Made by a program: the position numbers and the translations under genes
Shown: positions 27,017-49,500 of the stretch, one piece after another
Layout: every line of letters begins with the position of its first letter
How positions within the stretch are numbered: position 1 is the stretch's first letter
Notes under the pieces: model-generated
Databases searched by the model: none
What the model was told of the DNA's origin: nothing
Seen by the model: only the letters and a program-made list of their open reading frames with translations
Assembly (NCBI GenBank): GCA_963682025.1
Contig: OY821517.1
Location: 231,859,603-231,923,602, forward strand
Source: Cordilura impudica
Taxonomy: Eukaryota; Arthropoda; Insecta; Diptera; Scathophagidae
Direction of reading: 5' to 3'
Length of the DNA stretch: 64,000 bases

Positions 27017-28042
27017 GTGACAGTGTTAAAGGATTTTCACGATAGTCCTTTGGGCGGTCACGTGGGTGTGCAGGCGACCGTTAAAAGGATAAGGAGGCAA
27101 TTTCGCTGGGTCGGCATGCACAGGGATATTAAACAATATGTGAAGAAGTGCGTTAAATGTCAGCAAAATAAGAGTGCCAAGAAAACGTTTATGCCGATGG
27201 TCCTCACGGATACTCCTAGTCGACCTTTTCAGAAGGTATATATGGATATGGTGGGACCTCTCCCTGAAGGCACTACGGGTAACAAATTGATATTGACTTT
27301 TCAAGATGATTTTTCGAAATTTATGTTGTGCGCAGCAATGCCGGATGGGGAGGCTAGTACTGTGGCGAAAATTTTCTTTAACGAAATTATAGCCAAGTAT
27401 GGGGTTCCAAGCATGCTGGTCACGGACAACGGGACAAATTTCATGTCGAAGATGTTTTCGGATACCTGTAGGCTGTTAGGGGTCAAGAAATTGAACATCA
27501 CTCCATATCACCCGCAGGCAAACGGTTCATTGGAAAGGAGTCACCGTCCTTTGGCGGAGTACCTGAGGAGCTTCGTCAATGAGGATGGCAGCAATTGGGA
27601 CCAATGGTTGGCACCGGCTATGCATGTGCACAACAACACTGTACATTCATCTACGGGGCAGACCCCATTTAAGACATTATACGGCTTCGACATCGACTTA
27701 CCGACCAACCTAAGTAAAAAATGTACACCACTTTACAATACGGAGGACCCAAACAAGGTCCTTAAATATCAGATACAGCGCTCGCATGAACTAGTGCGAA
27801 AGAATCAGACGAGGGCTAAGTTGTTATCGAAAAAGGCTTATGACAGGAAGGTAAATTCTGTGTCCTTTGCAGTAGGTGATAGGGTGCTTGTTAGGAACAA
27901 CACCAGGAAAAATAAGTTTTCACCCATTTGGACTGGACCTTATGAGATAGTTGTGGTAAACAGTCCGGTAACGTCCACGGTGCGCATAAAGGTGAAGAAT
28001 CGTAAGTGGCATAATAACCATTTACGGGCTTTCCAGCAGTGA
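27017..28042 (+). CDS. Gypsy-type integrase
   Basis: An uninterrupted 341-codon frame starts inside the pre-zinc region (LKDFHDSPLGGHVGV). The HHCC finger ends CVKCQQNK. The catalytic D, D and E are visible in VYMDMVGPL, LVTDNGTNF and GSLERSHR. The C-terminal DNA-binding part includes FAVGDRVLVRNN and WTGPYEIV. Integrase inserts the cDNA into the chromosome. It was originally part of the Pol polyprotein, and a deletion just upstream now cuts it off from RNase H, so it has no proper start. Confidence 0.85.
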   Translation: MTVLKDFHDSPLGGHVGVQATVKRIRRQFRWVGMHRDIKQYVKKCVKCQQNKSAKKTFMPMVLTDTPSRPFQKVYMDMVGPLPEGTTGNKLILTFQDDFSKFMLCAAMPDGEASTVAKIFFNEIIAKYGVPSMLVTDNGTNFMSKMFSDTCRLLGVKKLNITPYHPQANGSLERSHRPLAEYLRSFVNEDGSNWDQWLAPAMHVHNNTVHSSTGQTPFKTLYGFDIDLPTNLSKKCTPLYNTEDPNKVLKYQIQRSHELVRKNQTRAKLLSKKAYDRKVNSVSFAVGDRVLVRNNTRKNKFSPIWTGPYEIVVVNSPVTSTVRIKVKNRKWHNNHLRAFQQ

Positions 28043-30541: not shown

Positions 30542-31537
30542 TTAAAATATAACATAACAGAAACAATAATAACACTGCAAGTAAACATAACTGAAATATA
30601 AATTCATTTAATTAATAACGATCGATTTTTCTCGAGCGTAATTATTAAATGTTTATTCAAGAAACATACATACAACCCAATTTGGCATGGTAACGCACAT
30701 TGGCTCATTTGCTTATGTTTGAATTTTTCGCCACTTTCAATGTGGAGCAATACGATATTGTTCCGCATTGACAGGTGTTGTGCTGTTTATTTTTTTTTAC
30801 CATGCGTTGGCTTGCTTATGTTTGTATTTTTTTTTAGAGTTTTTTTTTTGTATCGCAATGTTCCGTTATTGCAATTTTTAGCAATAACCTTGATTTAATT
30901 CTCTTTTGTTAATTTCCGCGTATATTAAATGTAAACGTATGTCTTTTTGTTTTTCCCACGGTACTTGCATTGTTATTATTTGTTTTCTTTTTGTTATTGG
31001 TTAAGTTAGCTATTTAAGTATGCCATGGCCATGAACTGCATTGAGTTATGGTTAATGTTTGTTTTCTTTTTATTATTAATTTTTTTACTTACATTATCAA
31101 TGCAATTTTTGCTTTTATTTTTGTTGTAGATATTTTTAATTAGTTTTAAGATTTAATATAAATAAAGGGGGAAAAGTCAGAACAGTGGCAGATGAAGATA
31201 AGTAAGTGCGCTGATCTGACTTAACCGTGAGAGAGCCTACTTGTCTTTGCCTATCCTTTTTTCTTTCCTTTTATAGCAACATTGACGCCGTTTGGGCGTC
31301 GATTGACAGCGCCTGCCAGCGCTAAAATACAATAGGCAAATCCGCGGTTAGGGCCTGATAGGGATTTGTTGTGTTAATAAATTTATGTGAGGTTAGTCCT
31401 TGGTATTTGGTCTTAAGACTTAGAGACTAAAGGCTAATGTCATATAGGTTATAGTCTTATATTTTGTAGTGTTTTGGGGTTATAGCCACGGTGATCAAGC
31501 TGCTGGAATATAGCCAAAACATTAATGACGCAGCCGG
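30431..31537 (+). repeat. 3' LTR of gypsy-type element, right end lost
   Basis: Near-identical to the 5' LTR from TGTTGTGAAAC onwards but with a shorter AAT tract. The match stops at GCAGCCGG (31537), about 70 bp before the inferred LTR end; LINE B endonuclease sequence follows directly. Confidence 0.75.
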
Positions 31538-34500
31538 CGAGGAACAGTTTTAATATTTACTTGTTATCTAATTTCAGTGACAGAGATGTAACAGCGGCTA
31601 GCCTGGAGTTAGATGGTAAAACAATCTGGCTCGCCTCCGCCTATTTTTGCGATCCTGGGCCTATTCCCATGGACAGCGTGGCAAATCTGATCCGGAAGGC
31701 CGAAAGAACTGCACACCAACTGGTGCTGTGCTGTGACGTCAATGCGCATCATCCGATCTGGGGAAGTACGGACATAAACGAAAAGGTGAGTTGCTTTTTG
31801 AGTTTTTACTTAGTACTAACCTGTATATATGTAACAAGGGAAATGAACCGACCCTTGTGACTAGTATTAAAAGGGAGGTTCTTGACGCTACCTTTGTATC
31901 AGATACATTATTTGATAAAATTGATGGTTGGAGGGTGTTGGATGACCACTCCTTTTCTGACCATCGCTATATCGAATTCTTACTTACAGAAAAGGACCCA
32001 ACGGAGAGTGTCCCCAGGAATCTGAAGAGGACAGATTGGGTTAAGTGTAGGAAAACCTTTGCTGGGTTATTGGAAACAATACCCTTAACCGAACCGCGCA
32101 ATTCTGCGGACATTGATTGTCTTGTAGATCATATTACGACGGTTTTTAACAAGTCTTTAGATTCTTCTTGCCCAGTGGCAAGGCCTACGGGCAAGAAGAA
32201 ACCACCATGGTGGTCTAGCGAGCTGCAGCAGGGTAGAGACTCCTGCAGAAAACTCTTTAACAAGGCAAAGTCTTCAAGAGCGGACGAGGATTGGTCGGCG
32301 TACAAGCTGCAGCTTAGGACCTATAAGAAGAAGATTAGAACGGCAAAATGCGATTCTTGGAAAAAATTCTGTGATAACATAGAGGAAGTTTCCGAGGCAT
32401 CCAGGCTGCGAAAGGTTCTGGCTTCTACCCCTCACACATTAGGCTATTTGAAGGATCCAGTGGGGCTGTGGACCACCTCCAGTGGAGAATCACTTAGGTT
32501 GCTACTGGACACCCATTTTCCGGGCAATTCTCATACGTCACTACAGGCGTTGGAATACTCTGACGCTAGCACGGCGGACATTGCTTCGGAGATAGTTAAT
32601 GTACCAACATTGACCTGGGCGATTAAATCTCCGGGACCTGACGGTATCATTCCAGCTGAATTGCAGCATGTATCGGACTACATTTCCCCTTGGCTATGCA
32701 GTCTTTTCACTTGCTGCATAAACACACCGTATATTCCTTTGAAATGGAGGGAGACAAGAGTGGTGTTCATTCCAAAAGCTGGAAAGAGCTAACACACTGT
32801 CCCAAAGGATTTCAGACCAATAAGCCTATCATCGTTCCTATTGAAGACAATGGAGCGTATGATAGACTCTTACTTACGTAGAATTATTGACCCTAAACTG
32901 CTATCAACGAAGCAACATGCCTACAGCAAGGGAAGGTCAACTGAAATAGCTCTACACGAGCTTGTAGGTACCATCGAGAAATCGCTCTCGGCAGCAGAAT
33001 ACACTATGACAGCCTTTTTGTCTAGGAGTGAATTCTGTGATCATCTCATTGATTGGAAATCTGCTTGTCAACAGGCGGATAACGTCTAAACTGGGAACGT
33101 CGGAAATATCCCGATTTGTGAACAGGGGAACGCCACAAGATGGCGTTCTATCACAACTTCTCTGGAACTTGGCGCTAAACCCAGTGCTAGTATCGTAGGA
33201 GGGGCAAGGCTGCAGCGTAGTCGCATATGCTGACGACGTGGCCATGGCCGTAAATGGGAAGTTTCTATCTACAATTAGAGATATTCTGCAACGGGCTCTC
33301 ACAGAGCTATCTATTTGGGCAAGGGGTTGTGGTCTGGGGGTTAATTCGACCAAAACGGAACTGGTTCTTTCCACTAGGGAGTATAAGATCCCTACCTTCG
33401 ATCCCATTTCTCTCAACGGCACTGAAATCGTCTTCTCTGATGGAGCCAAGTATCTCAGACGGAATTTGGAGGAGCGGGTGAAGAAGGCGACTATAGCTTT
33501 ATACTCCTGTGGTAAGCGATGGGGCTTTAGTCCGAAAATTGCTCACTGGATCTATACAGCGGTGGTCCGTCCAATACTCCTGTACGGAGTCATCGTCTGG
33601 TGGCCTGCTTTGGAGAGGGCCACCAATAACAACCTTCTCGCAAGGGTACAGAGAATGGCTTCCATGTGCATCACTGGAGCCCTTCGTACTACACCTTCGG
33701 ATGCCTTGAATATCCTATTATACCTAATACCACTGGACATAGTAGGGAAGCAGTCGGCGGCCTCATCGGCCATTCGATTAAGAAGCACACTAAAATGGCG
33801 GGGCTACAATTGTGGCCACGGGGTGATCCTGAATGGCAGGAACTTGCCATTGAACGTGGAATACACTATTCCAAGGAGCGTATTTGAACGTCACTACTGT
33901 ACGCTAATACCGACCAGGGAATCTTGGTCTGGGAGGACACCAGGCAGTAGGCGTTCCGTAAATTTCTATACTGACGGATCGAAATTGTGCGGTCAGGTTG
34001 GTTTTGGAGTCCATTCAGGGGAGCTTGGACTAAATTTGGCTCGAAGGTTACCAGACCATTGCAGTGTATATCAGGCAGAGGTACTGGCAATAAAGGAGGT
34101 TGCTGACTGGTTGGGTCGGAATATTCTGTCTACGACCGCAGTCAACATCTATTCTGATAGTCAAGCCGCGGTAAAATCCATGCGATCAATGTTCCTGAAA
34201 ACGAGAACCGCCCTTAGATGCCGCACGTCCTTAAATGAGGTGGCCAAGCAGTTCGACATCAGGCTCATATGGGTCCCAGGGCAGAGGAACATACCGGGAA
34301 ACTGCAAAGCGGATGAGCTGGCAAGACAGGGTACTACCTTACAGGTTCCAGCGGATTTGGAATGTGTTGGTACACCCCTGGGATCGTGCAAGCTTGAACT
34401 TCGGCTTCGCACCGCTGGCATAACGAATAACAGATGGGCTAATGGATTAACGCGTAGGATCACAAGACAAATCTGGCCTGCTCTGAATCGAAACCGCACA

Positions 34501-34809
34501 AATGCGCTATTATCACTCCCCCGTGGGGAGATATCAACGGTAGTTGCTGTTGTTACTGGGCACTGCCTTATAGGGAGACATGCTGAGCGCCTTAAGGTCT
34601 CGTCAAATGATTTCTGTCGTAGCTGCTTGGATGTGGAGGAGGTAGAGACCATAGAACACTTCCTCTGCCACTTCCCGACGCTATCCAGAAAGAGACTACG
34701 GATATTGGGATCGCCGTTTCTTCACGATCTCTCTGACCTCTCAAACGTGGAAATTTCACATCTTAGGGGCTTCATGAGAAGCTCGAACTGGTTCTTCGGT
34801 GGGGACTGA
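31538..34809 (+). pseudogene. LINE B ORF2 (endonuclease, RT, RNase H)
   Basis: It begins mid-endonuclease (FNIYLLSNFSDRDVTAASLE, CCDVNAHHPIWGS, DDHSFSDHRYIEF). Frameshifts lie near 31785 and 32790. The reverse transcriptase has GPDGIIPAEL and ALHELVGTIEK, but motif A is deleted after TAFL near 33020; NRGTPQDGVLSQLLWN and YADDVAMAV follow. From 33238 a long open frame covers the thumb, RNase H (NFYTDGSKLCGQ, E in VYQAEVLAIKE, IYSDSQAA, ADELAR) and a C-terminal knuckle (CRSCLDVEEVETIEHFLCH). Loss of the motif A aspartate makes it inactive. The stop is at 34807-34809. Confidence 0.85.
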
Positions 34810-36278: not shown

Positions 36279-37848
36279 TATATGTATGTTAGATGATGCC
36301 AAAAATTTTTTGTTGGACCCGGTAGATGGCGCTGGCGTTAGAAAAATAATGAGTTGTCAAATTTATTTAAATTTTATAAGTTACAAAATTCACAAACGTT
36401 TTTATATATAAATATTCTAACCAAAAAGGAAGGAAAAATCCCTTTGGCTATTGCTTCGTCCGGAATAGCCGCAACATTATTGCATGGTGGTCGTACAGCT
36501 CATTCAGCACTCAAATCACCGTTAAACGTACAAACAAATGAGAATGCCGTATGTAATATCAAAAAACATTCTGGTATGGCATAAGTTCTGCAAAAATTCA
36601 GTATTGTTATTTGGGATGAATGTAACATGGCTCACAAACATTCCTAAGAAGCATTACAAGAACTTTAAAAGATTTGAAAGGCAACGAAAGACTTTTGGTG
36701 GAGCTCTCATTTTATTATCTGGAGATTTTCGTCAAACATTGCCAGTCATACCAAAAACAACCTTTGCTGACGAAATAAATGGCTGTTGAAAATCACCAAC
36801 GCTATGGAGTAGCGTTCAAACTATAAAATTAATAAAAAACATGCGAGTACGATTACAAAATGATCCAACGGCTGACCAATTTTCAAAACAACTACTTGAT
36901 CTTGGTAATGGTAAAATCAATATTAACCCAACCAGTCAAACTATTAAAATATCCACAAGATTTTTGTCAATTTATATCGTCATGCGATGAATTAATTGAA
37001 AATATATTCCCCGACATTCAAAATCAATACCGTGACCATGATTGGTTAAGTGAAAGAGCTATTTTAGCCGCAAAAATGTCGATGTCGATAGTATTAATGT
37101 TGTTATTCAGGACATGATTGATTCCGAAACGTTTTCTTTCAAATCTATGGATAGTGTTGTTGAAGAAAATGAAGCAGTCAATTATCCAACAGAATTTTTG
37201 AATTCGCTTGATGTGCCCGGTCTACCGCCACATTTATTAAAATTAAAAGTTGGTTCTCCAATAATTTTTCTACGTAACCTCAACGCTCCGAGACTATGTA
37301 ATGGAACCAGGTTAATTGTTGAGAGAATAATGCCCAATGTTATTGAGGCCACAATTCTTAAAGGAATATTTAAAGGAGAACATGTTTTGCTGCCAAGAAT
37401 TCCTATGATTCCTACCGACACACCGATAACATTCAAAATTTGCAATTTCCGATCAGATTGGGCTTTGCCATGACCATTAATAAATCTCAAGGACAATCAT
37501 TGCAAATATGTAGTTTGAACCCCGAAAACAGTTGTTTTTCCCAGGAGCAACTATATGTGGCATATTCCCGTGTCGGAAAGCCAGCATATTTATTAATTTA
37601 CTGCAAGAATAATTAAGCTAAAAATATTTTGACAGTCTTTAGCATTACAATAATTGAAATATATTGGTCATTGTATGTTGCAATAAATATTTATTTTCAT
37701 TTTCATAAATAAAACATGGTTTTTCTTTAACAGTTATCAATTAATATTAACAAATGCACAAACTTTTTTTTTTATATAGGAATATACAGATGCTAACTAA
37801 AACAAAAAAATCATTGAGGGCAAAACAACGTTTGCCGGGTCCAGCTAG
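36279..37848 (+). mobile_element. Helitron 3' part and end
   Basis: After the LINE A target duplication the Helitron resumes (GGACCCGGTAGATGGCGCTGG). The 3' end is textbook: a hairpin GGCAAAACAACGTTTGCC (37819-37836), then CTAG at 37845-37848 followed by T. The replication-initiator half of the protein is missing, so the element is internally deleted. Confidence 0.8.
36395..37616 (+). pseudogene. Helitron helicase domain (PIF1-like), fragment
   Basis: The pieces read IPLAIASSGIAATLLHGGRT, SIVIWDECNMAHKHS (Walker B-like DE), GALILLSGDFRQTLPVIPK, then LPPHLLKLKVGSPIIFLRN and, after a shift, [12 protein letters not shown] and [13 protein letters not shown], ending at 37614-37616. These are consecutive motifs of the 5'-to-3' helicase of Helitron Rep/Hel proteins, which unwind DNA in rolling-circle transposition. 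At least five frameshifts or stops are present. The ATP-binding P-loop is not seen. Confidence 0.8.
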
Positions 37849-38555
37849 TTGCATATAATAGATAAATGTACAGCATTCTAAATTAATTATTAAATTTTTT
37901 ATATGGAGGATTTTTCAGTAGGGAATAAAGGCAGTTTTTAATTTTATATGATTTTTTACAAGTATTTCTAAAAATTTTACAAGTTTATTATATCTAAAAA
38001 TTTTCAAGTATATTATAAATAAAAAAAATCCTGTGAGTCCGATTACAGGGCAGATGTGTAAACATCTATTAATTCAAGATTTTTTATGGAACTTTTTTAA
38101 AATCAAACAGAAAGCGCCATCTATGTATCACTTATAGCAATCAACTGCAGGGGCTCTGCTAATGTAAGAATATTTATTATTATTTATTATTTCAACCGGC
38201 TAATTTTTAATTTTTCGTTTTTTATTTTTCATTTGCGTTTCTCATTTTTTCATTTTCCGTTTTTCGTTTTTAATTTTTTTATTTTTAATTTTTCCTTTTT
38301 AATTTCTTAGTTTTAATTTTTAATTTTTTATTTTTAATTTTTAATTTTTAATTTTTAATTTTTTATTTTTTATTTTTCATTTTTATTTTTAATTTTTTAT
38401 TTTTCATATATTATTTTTCGTTTTTTATTTTTAATTTTTATTTTTATTTTTTTATTTTTCATTTTTTATTTTTAATTTTTCAATTTTCATTGGTTATTTT
38501 TCATTTTTTATTTTTCACATTTTTCTTTTCATTTTTTATTTTTAATTTTTATTTT
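37849..38555. other. Non-coding; T-rich degenerate tandem tract
   Basis: From about 38190 onward the sequence is a degenerate array of TTTTTCATTTTTTATTTTTAATTTTT-like units of about 7-14 bp. 37849-38190 is plain AT-rich DNA. No gene is present. Confidence 0.6.
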
Positions 38556-38746
38556 TATTTTTCATTTTTTATTTTTCATTTTTAAGTTTTTATTTTACAT
38601 TTTTTATTTTACATTATTTATTTTTCATTTTCTAACAGGTTATCATATTTTTTTCACCAATACATTCATAAGTCACACCGATTTTGTGTTACGGCTCACA
38701 TGTTACGCTGTTTTTGTGATTGTATTATGAAATAGAAATTTACTCC
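38556..38746. repeat. Tandem duplication copy 1, left part
   Basis: This is near-identical to 47453-47640. The common sequence ends at GAAATTTACTCC, where the BEL element begins; the rest of copy 1 resumes at 46872. Confidence 0.85.
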
Positions 38747-39021
38747 TGTTAATTTGATAATATTTGTCTCGAAAAAAATGGTTGAACAGAAAAGAAAACA
38801 CAATTAGATTATATTTTCTAAATCGTTATAATTTATTAAAAAAATAATTCGGGGGTTTATTTCTTCGTACGTACCGTACTCGGCTGGGGTATACAAGCGT
38901 ATAAAAAAAGCTTTTTTTTTTCTTTTTTAATACATAAAAAGCACTTAGACGCCAAATAGAAAAACGAAGGATAAGATAAAAAAAAAAGATAAAAGGCACT
39001 GAACAGTAACAGGCCCTTTTA
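38747..39021 (-). repeat. BEL 3' LTR
   Basis: Plus-strand sequence starts TGTTAATTTGATAATATTTG and is shared with the other LTR to CAGGCCCTTTTA. The outer edge may be the ACA at 39009-39011 or TTTTACA at 39023. Confidence 0.8.
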
Positions 39022-39195
39022 CACGATCTGCGCTTAAACATCCCGCCCCCTTGCAAGAATGCAACAAGGAAGGCGAAAGATACAGCGGTAAAAACAAAGG
39101 AAAAAAGAGTTAAAAAAAAATTCATTTAAATAAATAATATATATGTATGTATATAAACAAAAAAAAGATAATGTTATATATAAAAAAAAAAAAAA

Positions 39196-39840
39196 TTAAA
39201 TTCGCTCAGTGTGAACGTTAATAACGATGGTGGCGTTAGGTTGGCCTGGGTACGCCATTTGTGCAGGTGCCATCACATTCTGCGCCATACTCTGCTGGAC
39301 CTGATGGTTGCAGCAATGACCACTGCAATGACTTGGATTGTTGTTGTTGTTATCGTTGATGGGGTTGTTGTTGTTGACGTGGTTTTTGTTCCGCCTTTTG
39401 TTCTTCCGCTTATTTCGCCGCTTTGCGCATATTTGCCTTACGGTGGTAACAACGGTAGGCTCACTGGGAACTGGAGGATTCGGTTGGACTGGTGGAGCTG
39501 CTCGGGAATTTTTATGGTTTTTGAACCGATGCAGCAGAGAATGATGGTCCGGCATACATTCTATACATCTCTCCCGGCTACTATATCGGTCCTTCATGTG
39601 GGAATGTGCCAAGCAATTTAAACAATACTGGAAACGTTTGACAGTTTCCCACCGCTCTTTCACCGACATTTTCCGAAATTTAAGGCATTTACGCAGCGCG
39701 TGCTCGCTCTTGCACAAGCAGCAATCGCGCAGGCTCTCATCACGAGGTGCCTTCTGGGTGGCCTTTCCACCAGCTTCGCCATTCCCTTCTGTAGCACGAT
39801 GCACTTGGAGACGGGCAGAAACCTTTGGCATCTTCAACAA
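39196..39840 (-). CDS. BEL third ORF: zinc-knuckle, basic-tail protein
   Basis: A clean 214-codon frame lies between the end of pol (39866) and the 3' LTR, where env sits in BEL elements that have one. It has no signal peptide or membrane segment. Residues about 35-105 hold CCLCKSEHALRKC, FQYCLNCLAHSH and CIECMPDHHSLLH, the zinc-knuckle array of BEL Gag proteins; the fourth ligand after LAHSH is replaced by Y. A basic stretch RRNKRKNKRRNKNH and an N- and P-rich tail follow. The element's own Gag has a separate, diverged array. It is probably an RNA-binding accessory protein derived from a Gag nucleocapsid; function unknown. Confidence 0.75.
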   Translation of the reverse strand: MLKMPKVSARLQVHRATEGNGEAGGKATQKAPRDESLRDCCLCKSEHALRKCLKFRKMSVKERWETVKRFQYCLNCLAHSHMKDRYSSRERCIECMPDHHSLLHRFKNHKNSRAAPPVQPNPPVPSEPTVVTTVRQICAKRRNKRKNKRRNKNHVNNNNPINDNNNNNPSHCSGHCCNHQVQQSMAQNVMAPAQMAYPGQPNATIVINVHTERI

Positions 39841-39865
39841 CTAAGGGGAAAGAAAAAAAAATATA

Positions 39866-42800
39866 TTAATTGGGTTCTTCATTGGGTAGGAGAACCAGCT
39901 TCACAATTGGGCGGGTAAAAATTCCAGAAGCAGTTCTCACGTCAGCTGCGCGGACTTTCAAATCATCTCCTAGGTAGACCTTTTCAAGTCGCCCTAATTT
40001 CCATTCATTAGGAGGGAGATTATCTTGTCGGATAACAACTAAGTCACCTACTGCAAAATCCCTCTGAGGATACTTCCACTTTACGCGTCTGTGGAGTTCC
40101 TTTAAATACTCTTCTTTCCACCTGAGAGCAAATTGGTGGTGAAGAGCCTTAAGTTTTTGCCACCTATTGGCAACACTCAACGTCAAATCGGAATAGTCGG
40201 GTTCAGCGGGTGCTAATAAAGGCATTCCGACTAAAAAATGACCAGGGGTTAAAGGAACTAGTTCCGTGGGATTGTCGCTCATTGCACTTAGAGGCCTAGA
40301 ATTTAAGCACGCTTCAATACGGGTTAGCATTGTCGTGAACTCTTCAAAAGTAAATCTCTGTGCATTAGAGACCTTCTTTACATGGGTTTTTACACTTTTT
40401 ACGCCGGCTTCCCATAAGCCGCCGATGTGGGGTGCACCAGGTGGAATAAAATGCCATTCTACTGGCTAAAAACCGTTTCCGACAAGAACTTTGTCCTTTA
40501 ATACGGCCAGAAACTTTTTCGAATCGATTTCGAGTAAATTTGAAGCACCCACAAGGGCTGTCCCATTATCAGAGTATAAATGGGACGGGCATCCTCGTCG
40601 TGAGAAAAAACGAGTGAAAGCCGCCAAAAAGGTATCAGACGACATGTCGCCTGTAGCCTCTAAATGAATTGCCTTTGTCGAAAAACAAACGAATACTAGA
40701 ACATATCCTTTTGTGATTCGACAACCCCTTCCCATGTAGGATTTTATATCAAATGGACCTGCGAAATCTAAACCGGTATGAGTAGAAGGTCTCGAAAGAA
40801 CACTTCGCTCAGGGGGTAAAGCAGCCATTATCTGCAGACCGGTTTTCTTTCGGTAAATGGTACATTGTTTGCAATTATCAATTACCGAACGAATCAAATT
40901 CTTTAATTTCGGAACCCAAAACTCAATTCGTACAAGGCGCAATACTAATGAATGCCCTCCATGTACTGAGCATTTATGGACATGTTCCACATATAAACGG
41001 GTAAAACGAGCCGAATAGGGTAAGATTTTCGGAAATCGTTCATCATATGTCAGACCGGGTGATCGCACTAATCTGCCATTCATTCTAACAAATCCATTAG
41101 AATCTATAAAGGGGTTTAATGTGAGTAAACTACTTTTTGGGGATAAGGGAATACCTTTCGATAAATTATCATATTCTGCAATATAGGCCTGTTGACATAC
41201 GAGAATTTAACGATCTCTTACAAACTTCAGCTCAGATTGAGTCATATTTGGAGTAGCGTATAGACTGATGCGTGTACGCAAATAGTGCAAACACCGAAAC
41301 CAATACGCTACAATTCGCATTGCACGGGGTAATTCAGAGAATCGTGCGAGTATGTCAAATGGCTTTTTCATCTCCGCATGATGGGACTGAATTTCCAAAT
41401 GAATATGATAATTAAACGTTTTCTGTGGCCAGTTTTCCCTAGGTTGTTGCAACCATTTCGGACCGTGCCACCATAACGAATTGTTTATCATATCGCTAGC
41501 GAGAGATCCACGACTTGCCAAATCGGCGGGGTTATCTTTGGAATCTACATGAGACCAATTCTCATTTCCAACTTTACTCAAAATAAGCGTCACCCTGTTC
41601 TTGACAAAAGTAGGCCAATGGCATGGGGGTTTTTTAAGCCAAGATAGAATCAGTCCACAGATAAATCTTGTTCTTGGCTAGATTTAGTTGACCACATAAC
41701 GATTCTATCATATTTGCCATTAATGTCGCTCCGCAAAGCTCCAAACGGGGTAGTGTTTCAAATTTAACAGGCGCTACTTTCGTTTTAGACGCAAATAAAT
41801 GCGTTTTAACCTCAGACGAGGAGGTACTACGAACTTAAAGAGTGGCAGCTTTTTCAGAAGCATCAAAAAAAGCCGTGGATCTCAATCTCATAATCGGGGT
41901 GAAAATTAACCCATCTTGGAATGCTAATTCTCTCAATATTTTATAATCGCTTAAAAATCCGTGCCATTGCTTTAGAGTTACGGGGTTTAAGCATTCATCC
42001 CAATCTGTCTTGTCTTTCCATATTTGTTGCATTATCATTTTTGCAACAATTATTTTCGGAGAGAGCCAACCGGCGGGGTCGAATAGTTTTGCTATTTCTG
42101 ACAAGACAGCACGCTTTGTAACAACATACCTACCTGGCTGCGATATGAGTTTAAAATAAAAACTGTCACTATCAGCGTTCCATCGCAAGCCAAGGGTCTT
42201 ATCTGTACTAGCATCCGAAAATTTCAAGAAGTTTGCATTTAACAGATTCTCGCAGGGTAAATTTTCTAAAAGACGAATGTGGTTTGCAGTCCATTTCCGA
42301 AAAACAAAACCAGCAGACCCAAGAACTTCAATAAGCTCATTTCGTCTTTTAAAAGCGTCCGCTAGCTCATGAGAGCCAGCTAGTATATCATCAACGTACA
42401 TCTGGGTTTTCAAAATTTCGGATGCCGCAGGATTTTGAGCTTCACATTCTCTCGCTAATTGTATAAGAGTTCGAATTGCAAGATACGGTGCACAGTTCAC
42501 TCCAAACGTCACCGTATTAAGCTCATAATCCTTTACGTCGACCTCGGGATCCTTACGGAATAAAATCCGCTGAAAGTGGGTTTGATTAGGGTGAATCAAA
42601 ATTTGTCGATACATTTTTTCAATATCGGCATTAAAAACGTAACGGTATAGTCGCCAACGCAGAATTAAAACCGTTAAATCTGCCTGTAATACAGGACCGG
42701 GGTGCAAAATATTGTTTAAACTTACGCCATTAGACGACGGATTTGAAGCGTTAAATACTACCCTAAGCTTGGTAGTAACACTATCGGGTTTAAATACCGC

Positions 42801-43712
42801 ATGGTAGGGTAAATAATATGCAGCAGAGCCTGATGTAGAAGAGTCTACTTCCCTCATGTGACCCCATTCGAGATACTCGCCAATCACACTATCATATTGT
42901 GATTTTAGTTCGGGGCTTTTCAAAAGACGAGTTTCATTTCTCATGAATTGGGATAAGGCCACATTCCGAGAATTTCCAAGAGATATATTACTCGAAAATT
43001 CCCGCCGGAATGGAAGTGAGACTACATAGCGACCATCTGGATTTCTATAAGTTGTCGACTGGAAAAGTTCTTCGCAATACTCATCGGCTTCAGACAATTG
43101 TGTCGCTTGTGGAACTTCTTCAAGGTCCCAAAACTGAGAGAGTTGAGAACTTAGCTCAATGTGGTTGAAATATGATTCAACTGAATTTAGGGGTTGTGGG
43201 TGAAAAACTTTACCTGTCACAATCCAGCCGAAAACTGTTCTCTGTGCGACTAGGTTACCATCCGGGTGTTTTTTCACATCGGGTAATATAATGTGAGAAT
43301 AAAGATCTCCCCCGAGGAGAAGATCCATTCGGGTGCATTTGACATCAGTCATAGAAATTTCAGGGAAATTTGAATTCATAATGTTCGCAAACGAACACGA
43401 GGGCAAACGACCCGTCAACTTCTCCACCACATATGCTTCAGTACGAATTTCAAAACTAGGGTCGATTGCTGAGCATATCGAAATAAAACATAGTTTTGAC
43501 GAAGTAGCTGTCAAACTCCCTTTAAGTCCAGTTATCTGCGCCGTTGGAGCAGAAAATGTGGGTATTGACAACTTTCTTTGCAACTTTTTTGATATAAAAG
43601 TGGCTTGAGAAGCTGGGTCAATTAAAGCACGAGCTGCGCACTTCATATCATTGACATGAATTTCACATAAAGTTGTTCCCAGCAATACTGTGGAATAGGG
43701 GTTGGAATGCAA
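39866..43712 (-). pseudogene. BEL Pol (protease, RT, RNase H, integrase)
   Basis: From 43712 a 625-codon frame holds the A17-type protease (CAARALIDPASQATFI, where DPAS stands in place of the more usual DSGS), then RT with VVFNASNPSSNGVSLNN, YVFNADIEKMYRQI and MYVDDILAG (YVDD). A stop near 41835 falls in RNase H (FFDASEKAATL); a frameshift, then LPRLELCGATLMAN and TDSILA. Linker sequence runs to 41207. The integrase (41083 on) has the zinc-binding part HVHKCSVHGGHS...CKQC, GLDFAGPF and YSDNGTALVG; after a stop at 40466-40468 come GLWEAGVKS and the C-terminal domain to 39866. At least three breaks make it non-functional. Confidence 0.85.
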
Positions 43713-43776
43713 ATGAGTTGCATATGTTTGGAATGAAGCAGCTGCAGCTGATGTAGATGCTCCATTTCCAGGGTTA

Positions 43777-45203
43777 TTAGGGGGTTGTCTGATTTTGAGT
43801 CTGGATATTAAAGCTTCCTGGATTATTTACGGGGTTATTAGTGCGAGGGTTTTGTAGTACAACTGTACTGTTCCGGGGGTTTTGTGGTACAAAAGTACCG
43901 TTTTGGGGGTTTTGTGGTACAAAAGTACCGGTTTGAGGGTTTTGTTGAACGAAAGTACCAGATCCAGAAGCTTGAGTATCCCGATGCAAAAGCGAATGAT
44001 GCTTTTGTTTGCACAAAAAACAAACATTTACGCTTTTACAAGCTCTAAATTCGTGGGATGTTTCCAGACAGTTCGAACAGCATTTGAGCCTTTTCACTGT
44101 CGCAAGTCTCCCCTCCACATTTTTTTGTAAAAATGTTGCACAAAGTCGCAAGGGATGTTGCTCCTGACAGAGAGCACAACGCAATACCGTCTGACTAGTA
44201 CTAGTCTTTGTAGCAAAAGTTTTTATTTTCTTCGAATCCTTAAACGATTTTTTTGATTCGGGTAAATTTGCGCTTTTATTTTGAGTTTGAACTGGGTTTG
44301 GATTCGAGCTTTTTATATCAGAAACGGCCTCAAGGGTATGATAACGAGCCGTTAAAAACTTATCCATTTCCTCCCACCTTGGATTAAATTGATCCGCTTT
44401 CGGAGAGTCTTCCCAGAGCGCTACAATATACCCGACCATATTGTAGCGCTCTGGGAAGACTTCGAAGAACATATAAAAACTAAAGCGTGATGCCAAATAG
44501 TTTCAAAACTAAGCTTTAACTGCGATAAATTAGTAATACAATCATTTATAGTGCGTTGTATACTTTTCAAATCAGGCCCAGTTTCCTTAGTGAGTTGAGG
44601 TATATTATAAAATAGGGTTTTAAATTGAGCATGTATTATAACATGTTTGTTTTCATACATGTCAACTAAATTTTTCCACGCAAGCTCAAAACCTTCATTC
44701 GTTAATGGACATGTTCGAACGATATTATGGGCTTCTCCTTTTGTTTTTTGCAAAAGGTAGTACAATTTCTCAACCGGGGATAGTCGAGAATTGTTTTTGT
44801 ACAAAGCAGTGAACATGTCCCTAAACGTAGGCCAATTAACATAATCCCCATAAAAAATATCAGTATCACACGGGGGTAAATGTATATTGGGCTTCAGGCT
44901 AAGCTCCTGGCGCTTTGCTGCCGCCTTAATTCGCTCAGTATTTTCGGTAATTAGAGAGATACCGCGAACGTAGGTAGTATACGAAGCCATATACCGCTGC
45001 TTGAGCTCCAATTGGGCCTTCTGAGTACCACCGCTTAAAAGGGACTCGTAGGTTTCCCGAACGGATTCCCATAACCGAGTCAACTCCTTTTCGTGAGCGT
45101 TTAAAGACCCGGTTTTATGGTCCGCTTGGGGTAATATGGCAATAAATGCCTCAAACTCAGTCAGGCGATCACAAACCCTAATGAAATCGTTCATTTCAGC
45201 CAT
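43777..45203 (-). pseudogene. BEL Gag
   Basis: The start is the ATG at 45201-45203 (MAEMNDFIRVCDRL); the frame is open further upstream but without BEL homology. DTDIFYGDYVNWPTFRDMFT and SPVEKLYYLLQKTKGEA are the conserved BEL capsid region. At 44407-44460 a perfect inverted repeat shifts the frame; Gag resumes as VALWEDSPKADQFNPRWEEM. The zinc-knuckle array follows (CALCQEQHPLRLC, CCSNCLETSHEFRAC, CFLCKQKHHSLLH), then three or four 10-residue QNP repeats (GTFVPQNPQN). Gag forms the particle. Its knuckles are intact. Confidence 0.8.
44407..44460. repeat. Perfect 23-bp hairpin inside BEL gag
   Basis: GTCTTCCCAGAGCGCTACAA plus TAT (44407-44429) is followed by an 8-nt loop ACCCGACC and the exact complement (44438-44460). 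It replaces the expected gag sequence and shifts the frame. Confidence 0.9.
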
Positions 45204-46596
45204 CTTTAAAAGATTAAATACTAAAAACGGGTTTGAAAAAAATTTAAAAAGGGTAAAATAAACTTTAAAATTGAATGACTGCGGGTTAAATTCAACAAAA
45301 AAATTTAATAATTTGAAAAAATTATCAAAAATACTCAAGAAAAATTGAGAAGATTAAAAAAAATGTTTCGGGTAAGTATTTTGGGGTGGAAAACTAATTG
45401 AAATAAATTTGTTTTCGTGTTAAACAAAAAAAAAAACAATTAAATTTTGGGTAAAAATTCGAAAAAAAAAATCAAAAATATTGACAATATAATACGTAAC
45501 AAAAGTAATTTACACATACGTAACAAAAGTAATTTACAAAAGTAATTTACAAAAAACCGGGTTAAAATTGCGAAGTTATCTTTAATTTACACTTAAAAAC
45601 AAATTAAAACAACAATTTTTACAGTGTAAATCACTTTCGGTAACAAAAATATGTATTAAAAGTTCAAATTACACTAGCGTCGCAACTTTTAAACACGGGT
45701 ACTCACAAACGGGTTCAATGAATTGAATTAATCTCACAAAATTTAATTAAATTTCACAAAATTACGGGTACTTTTATTAAGAAATGAGCCGAATAATTAA
45801 TTTATACCGAATTATGGCGAAAAAATTAATTAGAAATAACAAATACAGTGTCAAATAGCGGTATATTTCACTTTTATTTTAATAAAACTCACTCAATTAA
45901 TGCATTCACTGGGGTTAATATTTAGTTTTAATTAAATTAAATAATTTTATCAGAAAAAAATCACTAAATAGTTTTAATATTGTTATGTCCGATTTTGTTT
46001 ACAATTTTGTGTTTTATTCGTTCTAATTAGAACTAACGAGTAAAAATGGCAGCAATGACTTTAAACTGTAAAGCTTTATTTTAACAGAGAATTAAAATCT
46101 TGAGTTAAAAACAAAAAACAGAGCTTTATAAAAAAACTATTTTGCTTTGATATGAACATAACACAAAAAAAAACTAAAAACACAAGTAATGAGAAAAAAT
46201 ACAAGTAAAAAAAATAAATTTTTCTTCACTTTCGCTAAATGTTAACCAAGGGTGTTGTTGGTAAAATTTTAAAAGGGGTTTTTTTTTTTAACACTTGCAC
46301 TTGTTTCTGTTTTTGTAATTGTGGATTATTTAACACTTTTTGTTGGTATTTCTTTTTTCTATTTTATCAAAAAAAAAGGAACACTTTTTATGTTGTTACA
46401 CTTCACTTTTTATATTTTTCACACAAAAAATAAAGCCAAAAAAATACGTACCTTTTTCCTTTAAAGGGGTTTAGTAAGGGGGTACTTAAAATTGTCCGTC
46501 CAAATGGAAAGCCAAAGGGGGTTTCTAAAAAGAAATATTTCTCTTAACAAATATTATCAACGGGGTGGACTGTATAATCCGGTTCGAAGGACCAAA
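45204..46596 (-). other. BEL 5' leader with primer-binding site
   Basis: Immediately inside the 5' LTR (minus strand) is TTTGGTCCTTCGAACCGGAT, a primer-binding site of the type usual in BEL elements. The remaining 1.3 kb is A/T-rich leader without a supportable gene. Confidence 0.7.
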
Positions 46597-46871
46597 TGTT
46601 AATTTGATAATATTTGTCTCGAAAAAAATGGTTGAACAGAAAAGAAAACACAATTAGATTATATTTTCTAAATCGTTATAATTTATTAAAAAAAATAATT
46701 CGGGGGTTTATTTCTTCGTACGTACCGTACTCGGCTGGGGTATACAAGCGTATAAAAAAAGCTTTTTTTTTCCTTTTTTAATACATAAAAAGCACTTAGA
46801 CGCCAAATAGAAAAACAAAGGATAAGATAAAAAAAAAGATAAAGGGCACTGAACAGTAACAGGCCCTTTTA
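46597..46871 (-). repeat. BEL 5' LTR
   Basis: Near-identical to 38747-39021; only small differences in A and T runs and a few substitutions were seen. The outer edge merges into AGATGTTTACACATC of the duplicated flank. Confidence 0.8.
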
Positions 46872-47452
46872 AGATGTTTACACATCAAAAATTTTGTTTA
46901 TGTTTCACCTTAATACAATTTATACATTGTTTAAACCTACATGTATGCATTTCTCTAAAATACGTACGTTTTTTCATGTTTTGTATTTTAATAAGTGTAT
47001 GTTTATATTCGTCCTAATCAATATTAGAGAATAATTTAAGGAAGTTGAATATTTCTGTCAGTATCATGTTGTGTTTTAGTGTATACTTATATACATTTGT
47101 CTAAAATACATCCGTCTGTATGTTTGTTTTCTTTATACAGGTAATATTACATATTTTCTTGAAATAAAATGCAATATTTCCATTCATAAATTTCAACATA
47201 TATAAACAACAATACAAATCGGTGATTTTGTGCATTTGTTTAAAATACATTCGTTATTCACATAAATCTGTATGCCTGCTTCCATTGAAATAAATTTTTT
47301 ATTTAGAAATCATATATCACATAATAAAATGTGTCTATGTGGAGTTAATTGTGTTAAATAATTATAATGACCTCAATAAGTATAACATGAATTTTAGTAT
47401 TAATTATTATCGGTCTAATTCATAAAAAAACTTTATTTTGCCTCTAAAGTAT
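46872..47452. repeat. Tandem duplication copy 1, right part
   Basis: From AGATGTTTACACATC to GCCTCTAAAGTATA it matches 47652-48238 almost base for base. No coding content. Confidence 0.85.
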
Positions 47453-48238
47453 ATATTTTTCATTTTTTATTTTTCATTTTTAAGTTTTTATTTTACATTT
47501 TTTATTTTACATTATTTATTTTTCATTTTCTAACAGGTTATCATAATTTTTTCACCAATACATTCATAAGTCACACCGATTTTGTGTTACGGCTCACATG
47601 TTACGCTGTTTTTGTGATTGTATTATGAAATAGAAATTTACTCCCCTACGCGTTAAGATGTTTACACATCAAAAATTTTGTTTATGTTTCACCTTAATAC
47701 AATTTATACATTGTTTAAGCCTACTTATATGCATTTCTCTAAAATACGTACGTTTTTTCATGTTTTGTATTTTAATAAGTTTATGTTTATATTCGTCCTA
47801 ATCAATATTAGAGAATAATTTAAGGAAGTTGAATATTTCTGTCAGTATCATGTTGTGTTTTAGTGTATACTTATATACATTTGTCTAAAATACATCCGTA
47901 TGTATGTTTGTTTTCTTTATACAGGTAATATTACATATTTTCTTGAAATAAAATGCAATGTTTCCATTCATAAATTTCAACATATATAAACAACAATACA
48001 AATCGGTGATTTTATGCATTTGTTTAAAATACATTCGTTATTCCCATAAATCTGTATGCCTGCTTCCATTGAAATAAATTTTTTATTTAGAAATCATATA
48101 TCACATAATAAAATGTGTCTATGTGGAGTTAATTGTGTTAAATAATTATAATGACCTCAATAAGTATAACATGAATTTTAGTATTAATTATTATCGGTCT
48201 AATTCATAAAAAAAACTTTATTTTGCCTCTAAAGTATA
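47453..48238. repeat. Tandem duplication copy 2 (empty BEL site)
   Basis: An uninterrupted unit of about 786 bp. Its centre, ACTCCCCTACGCGTTAAGATG-like sequence near 47640-47660, shows the state before BEL insertion. It is A/T-rich and non-coding. Confidence 0.85.
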
Positions 48239-49500
48239 CTTTTGTTATTACACGGATTTTGTGTTATAAACCATTATTAGAAAAAAACACTATTCACAAA
48301 CATGTAGTTTTATAGTTTTGTGATGGCAACACTAGTCCTCTGTAGTTGTCAGTTTGTTGGTAGTGATGAATAAAGTAAATAAATCATCTACTCGGTAATT
48401 GAATAATATTTAATTTATATTCTTTTATATTATTATAGAAAAACAACTTCTCTTTAATAAAGAACAAAAAATATTTTTAAACAAATGATAATAATACAAA
48501 AAAAAATAATTTTTTACACATATTTGTTCGACGCGGTAGTAAAAGTATTGGAAAACGAATATGGCGTAGCAAAATTAAGAACACTGGTTTGTTTTGATTT
48601 AATTTTTATTTATATGTGAAAAAACAAGGAAAAGAAAAGCAAGGAAAATGGATGGAGCAACAAAACGTTTAGGAACATACCGATACAGAAAGATATATTG
48701 AAGAGATGGGAACAGGTGGAGTTTTATTTTATTTTTTTCCCGAGTTATGGACTTCCGAAGTTTTGACATTGACTTGTATAACACTTTGTTATTTAGTATT
48801 GGATTTCAGCAATATATATATCATTTGAAAGCTTATTTGATTGCCTTTTATTTGATATTTTTTAATTTGAAATCCATTAACCCATTATGAACCTATTTAA
48901 AAAAATTTTTTTTTTTTAATAGATTTTTTTTTCTTAAATATGGAATTATCTCGTAAATATACATATATCATGTGTGCTTTTACGAAAACTGAAGAAAAGC
49001 TGGCTCCACTTGCTTCATTTCGATTTTGACCTCTTAACTCTTTCAGGACCTGATATATTAGGGATTTTACCTACACTTTTTAGTTTTTTCGAAATACATA
49101 TTCTTATTTTTATATATTTTTTTTATATATTTTATATATTTAGAATTAAATGATTTTTTCAGCAGTCTAAAAGTATGACACATATTTTTTCTATTTTATA
49201 TTGACATTTATTTTGTATTTTAATAAGTTCATCGTAACCTATATAAGAGAATAATATATGAGTAAAGAAGTTGTATATCTCTTTTAATATCATGTATGTT
49301 TTACTGTATACGCATACGCAAAGTTTACAAATAATCTTTCAAGTTAATTGTTTTTATATTTATTTAAAAAAGTTTTTTTTTTTATATTTATTTTTAATTT
49401 TTAGCTCTATTCATAAAAAGTTACTGTAGGTCACGGAGGTGTTTTTTTTAGGTTTTTAGTAGATTAACAAACAAATGTTGCTATCTTACACTAGATGGTC
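48239..49500. other. Non-coding; includes a foldback-family repeat copy
   Basis: About 48700-49090 matches 59114-59590 (CCCGAGTTATGGACTTCC, TGACATTGACTTG, ATATCATGTGTGC) and, more distantly, the arms of the foldback element at 54277-55507. The rest is A/T-rich with no gene. Confidence 0.55.

Follow-up and report, generated by a model that had tools for sequence, protein, structure and literature searches.

The third open reading frame (ORF3) of a BEL/Pao LTR retrotransposon found in the window (the whole 64-kb stretch of DNA that was analysed) is probably a genuine accessory gene of a fly BEL/Pao lineage. With a probability of about 0.6, it would occupy the env position, be expressed from a spliced RNA and encode a free-standing nucleocapsid that acts in trans. 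ORF3 follows the integrase in this copy, has homologues in which its zinc-knuckle array and its C-terminal tail are conserved, and is preceded by a splice acceptor of exceptional score. We infer the same place after the integrase in other species, and the putative assignment to a fly lineage rests on the named relatives.

Structure of the element and of ORF3

The BEL/Pao element occupied 8125 bp on the minus strand (38747–46871), as did all of its features given below. The 3′ LTR was located at 38747–39040 (right end approximate) and had TGTT...AACA ends, as judged by eye; the 5′ LTR was located at 46597–46871, without 19 nt that were present at the start of the 3′ LTR. The LTRs were 275–294 bp long and 98.2% identical over 276 columns. 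Over the 275 bp common to both (38747–39021 in the 3′ LTR), they differed by three substitutions and two one-base indels, both in homopolymers. A probable polypurine tract, purine-rich and found by eye, adjoined the 3′ LTR (39041–39054). The probable primer-binding site (TGGTCCTTCGAACCGGAT, 46577–46594), an 18-mer adjoining the 5′ LTR, was recognized by eye; it looks nearer to the 3′ end of tRNA-Tyr than to tRNA-Arg or tRNA-Gly. The literature gives tRNA-Arg or tRNA-Gly for the primer-binding site of BEL/Pao elements, an LTR pair of 0.2–1.2 kb and a total length of 4.2–10 kb (PMC8742986), and the LTR size and total length of the present element both fell within these ranges for Belpaoviridae.

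The gag gene was distributed over two ORFs and pol over four, in the usual domain order according to Pfam. The first part of gag (44421–45338, with an ATG at 45203) carried DUF1759, and the second part (43777–44496) contained the element's own nucleocapsid knuckles, as identified from the ORF list and the knuckle array. The pol gene began with protease, reverse transcriptase and Peptidase_A17 (41835–43712), of which Peptidase_A17 exceeded the Pfam cut-off and RVT_1 remained just below it (27.5 bits; cut-off 29.6). It continued with a fragment that had no Pfam match (41207–41593), an integrase fragment with the H2C2 zinc-binding domain and an rve core below the Pfam cut-off (40466–41083), and an end with DUF5641 (39866–40330; E 2.8e-29). 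Pfam placed a gag and a Pao-type pol in the element (DUF1759, RVT_1, Peptidase_A17, integrase H2C2/rve and DUF5641). A nearly perfect hairpin (44406–44461; stem of ~25 bp, 6-nt loop, −46.9 kcal/mol for 71 nt) was located at the reading-frame break in gag, and it looks like an inverted duplication.

The element was inserted within a tandem repeat, of which 46869–47464 matched 47653–48249 (97.8%) and the left flank 38556–38746 matched 47454–47644 (99.5%). Compared with the repeat, the right junction was missing ~8 bp of flank, and the 5′ LTR its first 19 nt. Directly past the 3′ LTR, there was an AT-rich array with a spacing of ~14 bp (38154–38692). By eye, the regions 27017–28042, 31525–34809, and 36538–37473 held remains of other mobile elements: an integrase ORF of gypsy type, a stretch with endonuclease, RT and RNase H as in a LINE, and fragments of helicase-like sequence similar to Helitron/PIF1.

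ORF3 followed pol with its integrase and DUF5641, and was itself followed by the purine-rich tract and the 3′ LTR. The earlier note had described an ORF of 214 codons, and the frame indeed extends over 39196–39840, minus strand; this length counts from a TTG, and 211 codons remain from the first ATG at 39831 (39196–39831). The ATG lies 34 nt past the pol stop in a different frame. ORF3 is a separate frame and thus not part of a Gag polyprotein with a capsid domain; against Pfam it gave no match, with neither DUF1759 nor a capsid part. Its product is a stand-alone nucleocapsid-like protein with a three-unit zinc-knuckle array (39529–39723) of the patterns C-x2-C-x3-H-x4-C, C-x2-C-x4-H-x4-C, and C-x2-C-x3-HHSLLH. 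The array had the same knuckle spacing as that of the element's own Gag and was 44.6% identical to it (BLASTP of ORF3 against own Gag, E 2e-16). The ORF list, Pfam and the two arrays thus bore out the claim that a third ORF with knuckles follows the integrase while Gag keeps a separate array. The three knuckles of a BEL nucleocapsid are present in the ORF3 family, of which the window copy is a damaged member.

Behind the array, the linker contained a lysine/arginine-rich stretch (residues 137–149; 39385–39423), which also occurred in most ORF3 relatives, with a maximum of 11 K/R per 20 residues. The tail alignment revealed a C-terminal motif, TIVINV (residues 201–206; 39214–39231), and the protein ended with ATIVINVHTERI. 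As judged by eye, ORF3 was basic, rich in Asn/Gln and without a long hydrophobic stretch, and no signal peptide, fusion peptide or transmembrane segment was seen, so that it did not look like an env-like glycoprotein. The structure model of ORF3 was poor (mean pLDDT 57.6), and a comparison with PDB sequences gave only one match (E 0.93).

Relatives of ORF3 and its possible origin

Protein searches, limited to 0.55–1.75 times the query length and thereby excluding long Gag-Pol proteins by design, recovered 5 homologues among 32 candidates, 78 among 3632, and 32 among 811, 91 different proteins in all. The best homologues were P0001 (E 6.6e-48) and P0002 from Lucilia sericata (E 1.3e-36), which indicated that ORF3 is not a chance frame. 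Two classes that were ORF3-like over the whole length were set up by eye, comprising 27 proteins together with the window copy. Class 1 (P0001–P0006) measured 172–223 aa, and only a few residues followed its terminal ATIVINV. The 20 proteins of class 2 measured 138–182 aa, and most of them had [APT]T[IV][IV][IV]N[VL] equally close to the end. The named members belonged to Lucilia sericata (P0002, P0005, and P0007) and Cochliomyia hominivorax (P0012). Identity to the window ORF3 was 44–54% overall in class 1 and 28–40% in the aligned members of class 2.

Among the 27 proteins, knuckle 1 was found in 25, knuckle 2 in 26 and knuckle 3 in 26; the strict tail T[IV][IV][IV]N[VL] was found in 22, including the window copy. 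A tail variant, [TM]FVFHF, occurred in P0014 and P0079, and neither form in P0018, P0025, and P0060. ATIVINV was invariant in a six-row alignment in which 2 of 98 linker residues were invariant. Five of the six class 1 relatives start at the window ATG or have an internal Met there, and P0005 starts later. The earlier note had left the existence of other copies to be checked. Relatives were found at the protein level; a second copy of the element was not found within the window, the viral contigs (four queries) and genome contigs (one query) yielded no second ORF3 locus, and a plasmid search with a piece of pol gave nothing useful.

The same array was joined to a protease-like domain in 35 of the 91 matches (259–386 aa; among P0019–P0059, P0084, and P0086–P0089), 30 of them from the 78-match search and five from the 32-match search. 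Most of these proteins start shortly before the array, they stop within ~10 residues past the domain, and no Gag capsid part was seen in them. Ten had names, all from flies (Lucilia, Stomoxys, Haematobia, Drosophila, Musca, and Rhagoletis), and were labelled uncharacterized. The AlphaFold2 model of P0044, made with 24 others, was confident in the protease-like domain (overall pLDDT 82.8). In Foldseek it matched Ddi1 and proteases of retroviruses best, with a lowest E of 6.2e-05; 11 chains had E 0.001 or lower, and TM by target was mostly 0.5–0.7. The catalytic triad was examined in 25 of the 35 proteins (alignment A3, picked by eye from the first 30), where it read D-[ST]-G in seven and the aspartate itself was lost in six. 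Departures of the triad alone do not prove loss of activity, because the element's own Pol reads DPA at that site. A different stand-alone form of the knuckle protein, in which the C-terminus is rich in Leu/Gln (e.g., LQQLQRLLG), was seen in P0057, P0058, P0061, P0062, P0064, P0067, and P0069; those with names came from Zeugodacus, Bactrocera, and Haematobia.

With hhalign, the class 1, class 2, and protease-like arrays were linked at probabilities of 99.9–100% (99.9% for class 2 against the 25 protease-like proteins); the class-against-class alignments did not extend into the tail. In the array tree, ORF3 paired with P0001, the array of the own Gag paired with P0024, and class 1 and class 2 were split; this tree held 67 of 80 arrays, as 13 with a misplaced first knuckle or no HHxLLH were dropped and P0079–P0091 lay outside. 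Among the classed stand-alone rows, 34 of 49 were nearer to ORF3 than the own Gag is, compared with 2 of 16 other rows. In AU tests, neither a clade of ORF3 with its own Gag (p 0.22) nor a single clade of all 50 classed stand-alone rows (p 0.196) was rejected. The 65 columns of the array tree thus cannot settle descent from the own Gag or a single stand-alone clade, and the tree was set aside as a proof of origin.

The earlier note suggested that ORF3 may be a duplicated nucleocapsid that had become an accessory RNA-binding factor. The conserved family and the splice signals support the accessory part, and a duplication of the own Gag was neither proved nor rejected by the AU test. At odds of perhaps two to one, we think that ORF3 arose long ago from a nucleocapsid-protease unit rather than recently as a copy of the own Gag. 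The TIVINV-type tail is similar to the strand with which the protease-like domain begins (e.g., PTIVVNV in P0047). When a matrix of this first strand was run on 25 of the 27 proteins (P0025 and P0060 left out; the rows are related), the true column order scored best and 7 of 2000 shuffled orders reached its score. As exceptions, the best stretch of the window copy was not TIVINV, and P0014, P0018, and P0079 scored below zero. This led to the suggestion that the ORF3 tail may be a remnant of the first strand of a protease-like domain. The related fly proteins would form a natural series (canonical triad, degenerate triad, strand only) in which to follow the evolution from a polyprotein to an accessory RNA-binding factor.

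Splice signals, proposed function and alternatives

A 3′ splice site (TATATTTTTTTTTCTTTCCCCTTAG, 39841–39865) was predicted directly before ORF3; the exon would begin at 39840, with its first base 9 nt upstream of the ATG. It scored 7.5 and ranked first among the 391 scored AGs of the element, the next best reaching 3.4. In the leader, 145 nt past the 5′ LTR, a 5′ splice site was predicted (AAAAAG/GTACGTATT, 46443–46463; intron start 46451), which scored 10.04 and ranked second among 433 scored GTs; the top donor (11.0) was located in pol at 42133. All these scores came from a matrix with approximate weights. Markov sequences of the length of the element held on average 0.17 acceptors this good, and 30 of 200 held at least one, so that an equally good acceptor is not rare somewhere in the element and is rare at this place; for any one ATG, ~0.0004 would be expected at a distance of 20 nt or less. 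No ATG was present between the LTR and the leader donor, and one was present upstream inside the LTR. If transcription starts past the LTR ATG, no other ATG would precede that of ORF3 in the spliced RNA.

Eight relatives extending past the conserved Met, picked by eye, were checked for the acceptor by a permissive back-translation with no control: FFPLVAK in P0001 fitted CCCTTAG/T of the window within one nucleotide, an AG near the ATG could be encoded in six others (P0008, P0010, P0025, P0030, P0053, and P0060), and P0033 fitted poorly. Like an env-like third gene, ORF3 follows pol and has a predicted acceptor of its own.

ORF3 takes the env position of retroviruses, as seen from its post-integrase place in this one copy. 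Its product would most likely be translated from a spliced subgenomic RNA in which the leader donor at 46451 is joined to the acceptor at 39840 and gag-pol is skipped. The array suggests that the three knuckles and the basic stretch bind nucleic acid, and the beta-strand-like motif at the C-terminus would probably serve self-association or docking on Gag or protease. ORF3 would most likely act in trans on the unspliced RNA of the element in packaging, chaperoning or nuclear export. We put forward an extended version more tentatively, at somewhat less than even odds. According to it, flies possess an undescribed BEL accessory system, in which a spliced, free-standing nucleocapsid in the env position derives from a nucleocapsid-protease unit, the protease being either kept without its triad or, as in this lineage, cut to its first beta-strand and conserved as a docking or self-association tag, and this second, trans-acting nucleocapsid would serve a step that Gag's own cannot.

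Four other explanations were weighed against the accessory gene. ORF3 might be a self-restriction factor: like p22 of yeast Ty1, this shortened relative of Gag would poison the assembly of particles and keep the copy number low. The knuckle modules of a Gag nucleocapsid without a capsid domain agree with this role, and the strand-like motif could engage Gag or protease. However, Ty1 p22 includes capsid sequence and ORF3 has no such part, and a separate gene kept in several flies would be odd for a purely self-limiting role, which makes this explanation unlikely.

The target may instead be the host, with a nuclear, basic knuckle protein acting against small-RNA silencing or altering host RNA metabolism. 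A density of up to 11 K/R in 20 residues would suit such a protein, and an accessory ORF of MDG1 retrotransposons is described as serving cell-to-cell transmission and not replication as such (PMC11952523). A nucleocapsid-like array, however, points first to the element's own RNA, and we regard a mainly host-directed action as rather improbable.

A neutral relic, i.e., a duplicated or recombined piece of gag after pol that is open by chance, would fit the state of this copy. A simulated neutral ORF of the same size stayed open in 88% of runs under the LTR substitutions only, and in 13% when the LTR indel rate, based on the two homopolymer indels, was added. The 88% neutral survival ruled out the open frame of this copy as a sign of selection. 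In addition, knuckle 2 of this copy was without its last ligand (a cysteine), and the full C-x2-C-x4-H-x4-C was kept in all 26 relatives of classes 1 and 2; because of this loss, the ORF3 protein of this copy is already damaged. The copy of the element is decaying, with one zinc ligand gone. The statement that this ORF is not broken therefore held for the frame, which is open, but openness is weak evidence and the protein has lost a ligand. The relatives tell against a relic: in class 1, at 44–54% identity, knuckles 2 and 3 and the tail were kept in six of six proteins and the start and knuckle 1 in five of six, and the strong acceptor lies at the ORF3 ATG. Judging from the sequences compared, the conserved array and tail of the relatives are stronger evidence for a real gene than the openness of this copy, and we give the relic little chance.

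A host origin, in which the stand-alone relatives would be domesticated genes and ORF3 a captured one, is very improbable. Gene annotations exist for some relatives (in Lucilia, Stomoxys, Drosophila, and others; one reads "transcription factor asR4-like"), but annotation pipelines often label transposon ORFs as genes, the array is of the BEL Gag type, and ORF3 lies inside the LTR boundaries in the window.

Comparison with known systems

In the open-licence literature, no description of a nucleocapsid-like third ORF in BEL/Pao was found in titles and abstract starts among the matches listed. Among accessory ORFs of LTR retrotransposons, the ORF3 family appears undescribed in this literature. 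The earlier note did not mention the splice signals, the conservation of the tail, the loss of a zinc ligand, or the kinship with the knuckle-plus-protease-like proteins. If the accessory gene is real, several "uncharacterized" or oddly named fly genes would be relabelled as transposon products.

The closest known counterpart is the Gag nucleocapsid of BEL/Pao elements (Belpaoviridae), which likewise has three knuckles with the same spacing, an HHSLLH end and 44.6% array identity. In contrast, ORF3 stands alone after the integrase, has no DUF1759 and carries its own basic stretch and TIVINV tail. The knuckle-plus-retropepsin-like fly proteins share a homologous array and, like ORF3, show no Gag capsid part; they carry a Ddi1/retropepsin fold (P0044), of which ORF3 would retain no more than a trace of the first strand.

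The env or env-F gene of insect endogenous retroviruses (gypsy clade of Metaviridae) is also a third ORF downstream of pol and is spliced (PMC12992720); splicing of ORF3 is predicted. ORF3 differs from it as a knuckle protein in a BEL element with no glycoprotein features by eye. The sORF1 and sORF2 of the Drosophila MDG1 group are also small accessory ORFs of an env-less fly LTR retrotransposon, sORF2 being transmembrane and fusogen-like and sORF1 a potential helix-turn-helix protein, and they are usually located upstream of gag (PMC11952523), whereas ORF3 encodes a knuckle protein downstream of pol. The ORF3s of bdelloid rotifer LTR retrotransposons are diverse and, as here, not only env; DEDDy, GDSL, and env-like types are named, and the words zinc and CCHC are absent from the main text (PMC5408684). 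In the literature compared here, the accessory genes are env, captured enzymes and membrane proteins, and a free nucleocapsid gene, if true, would represent a different accessory function.
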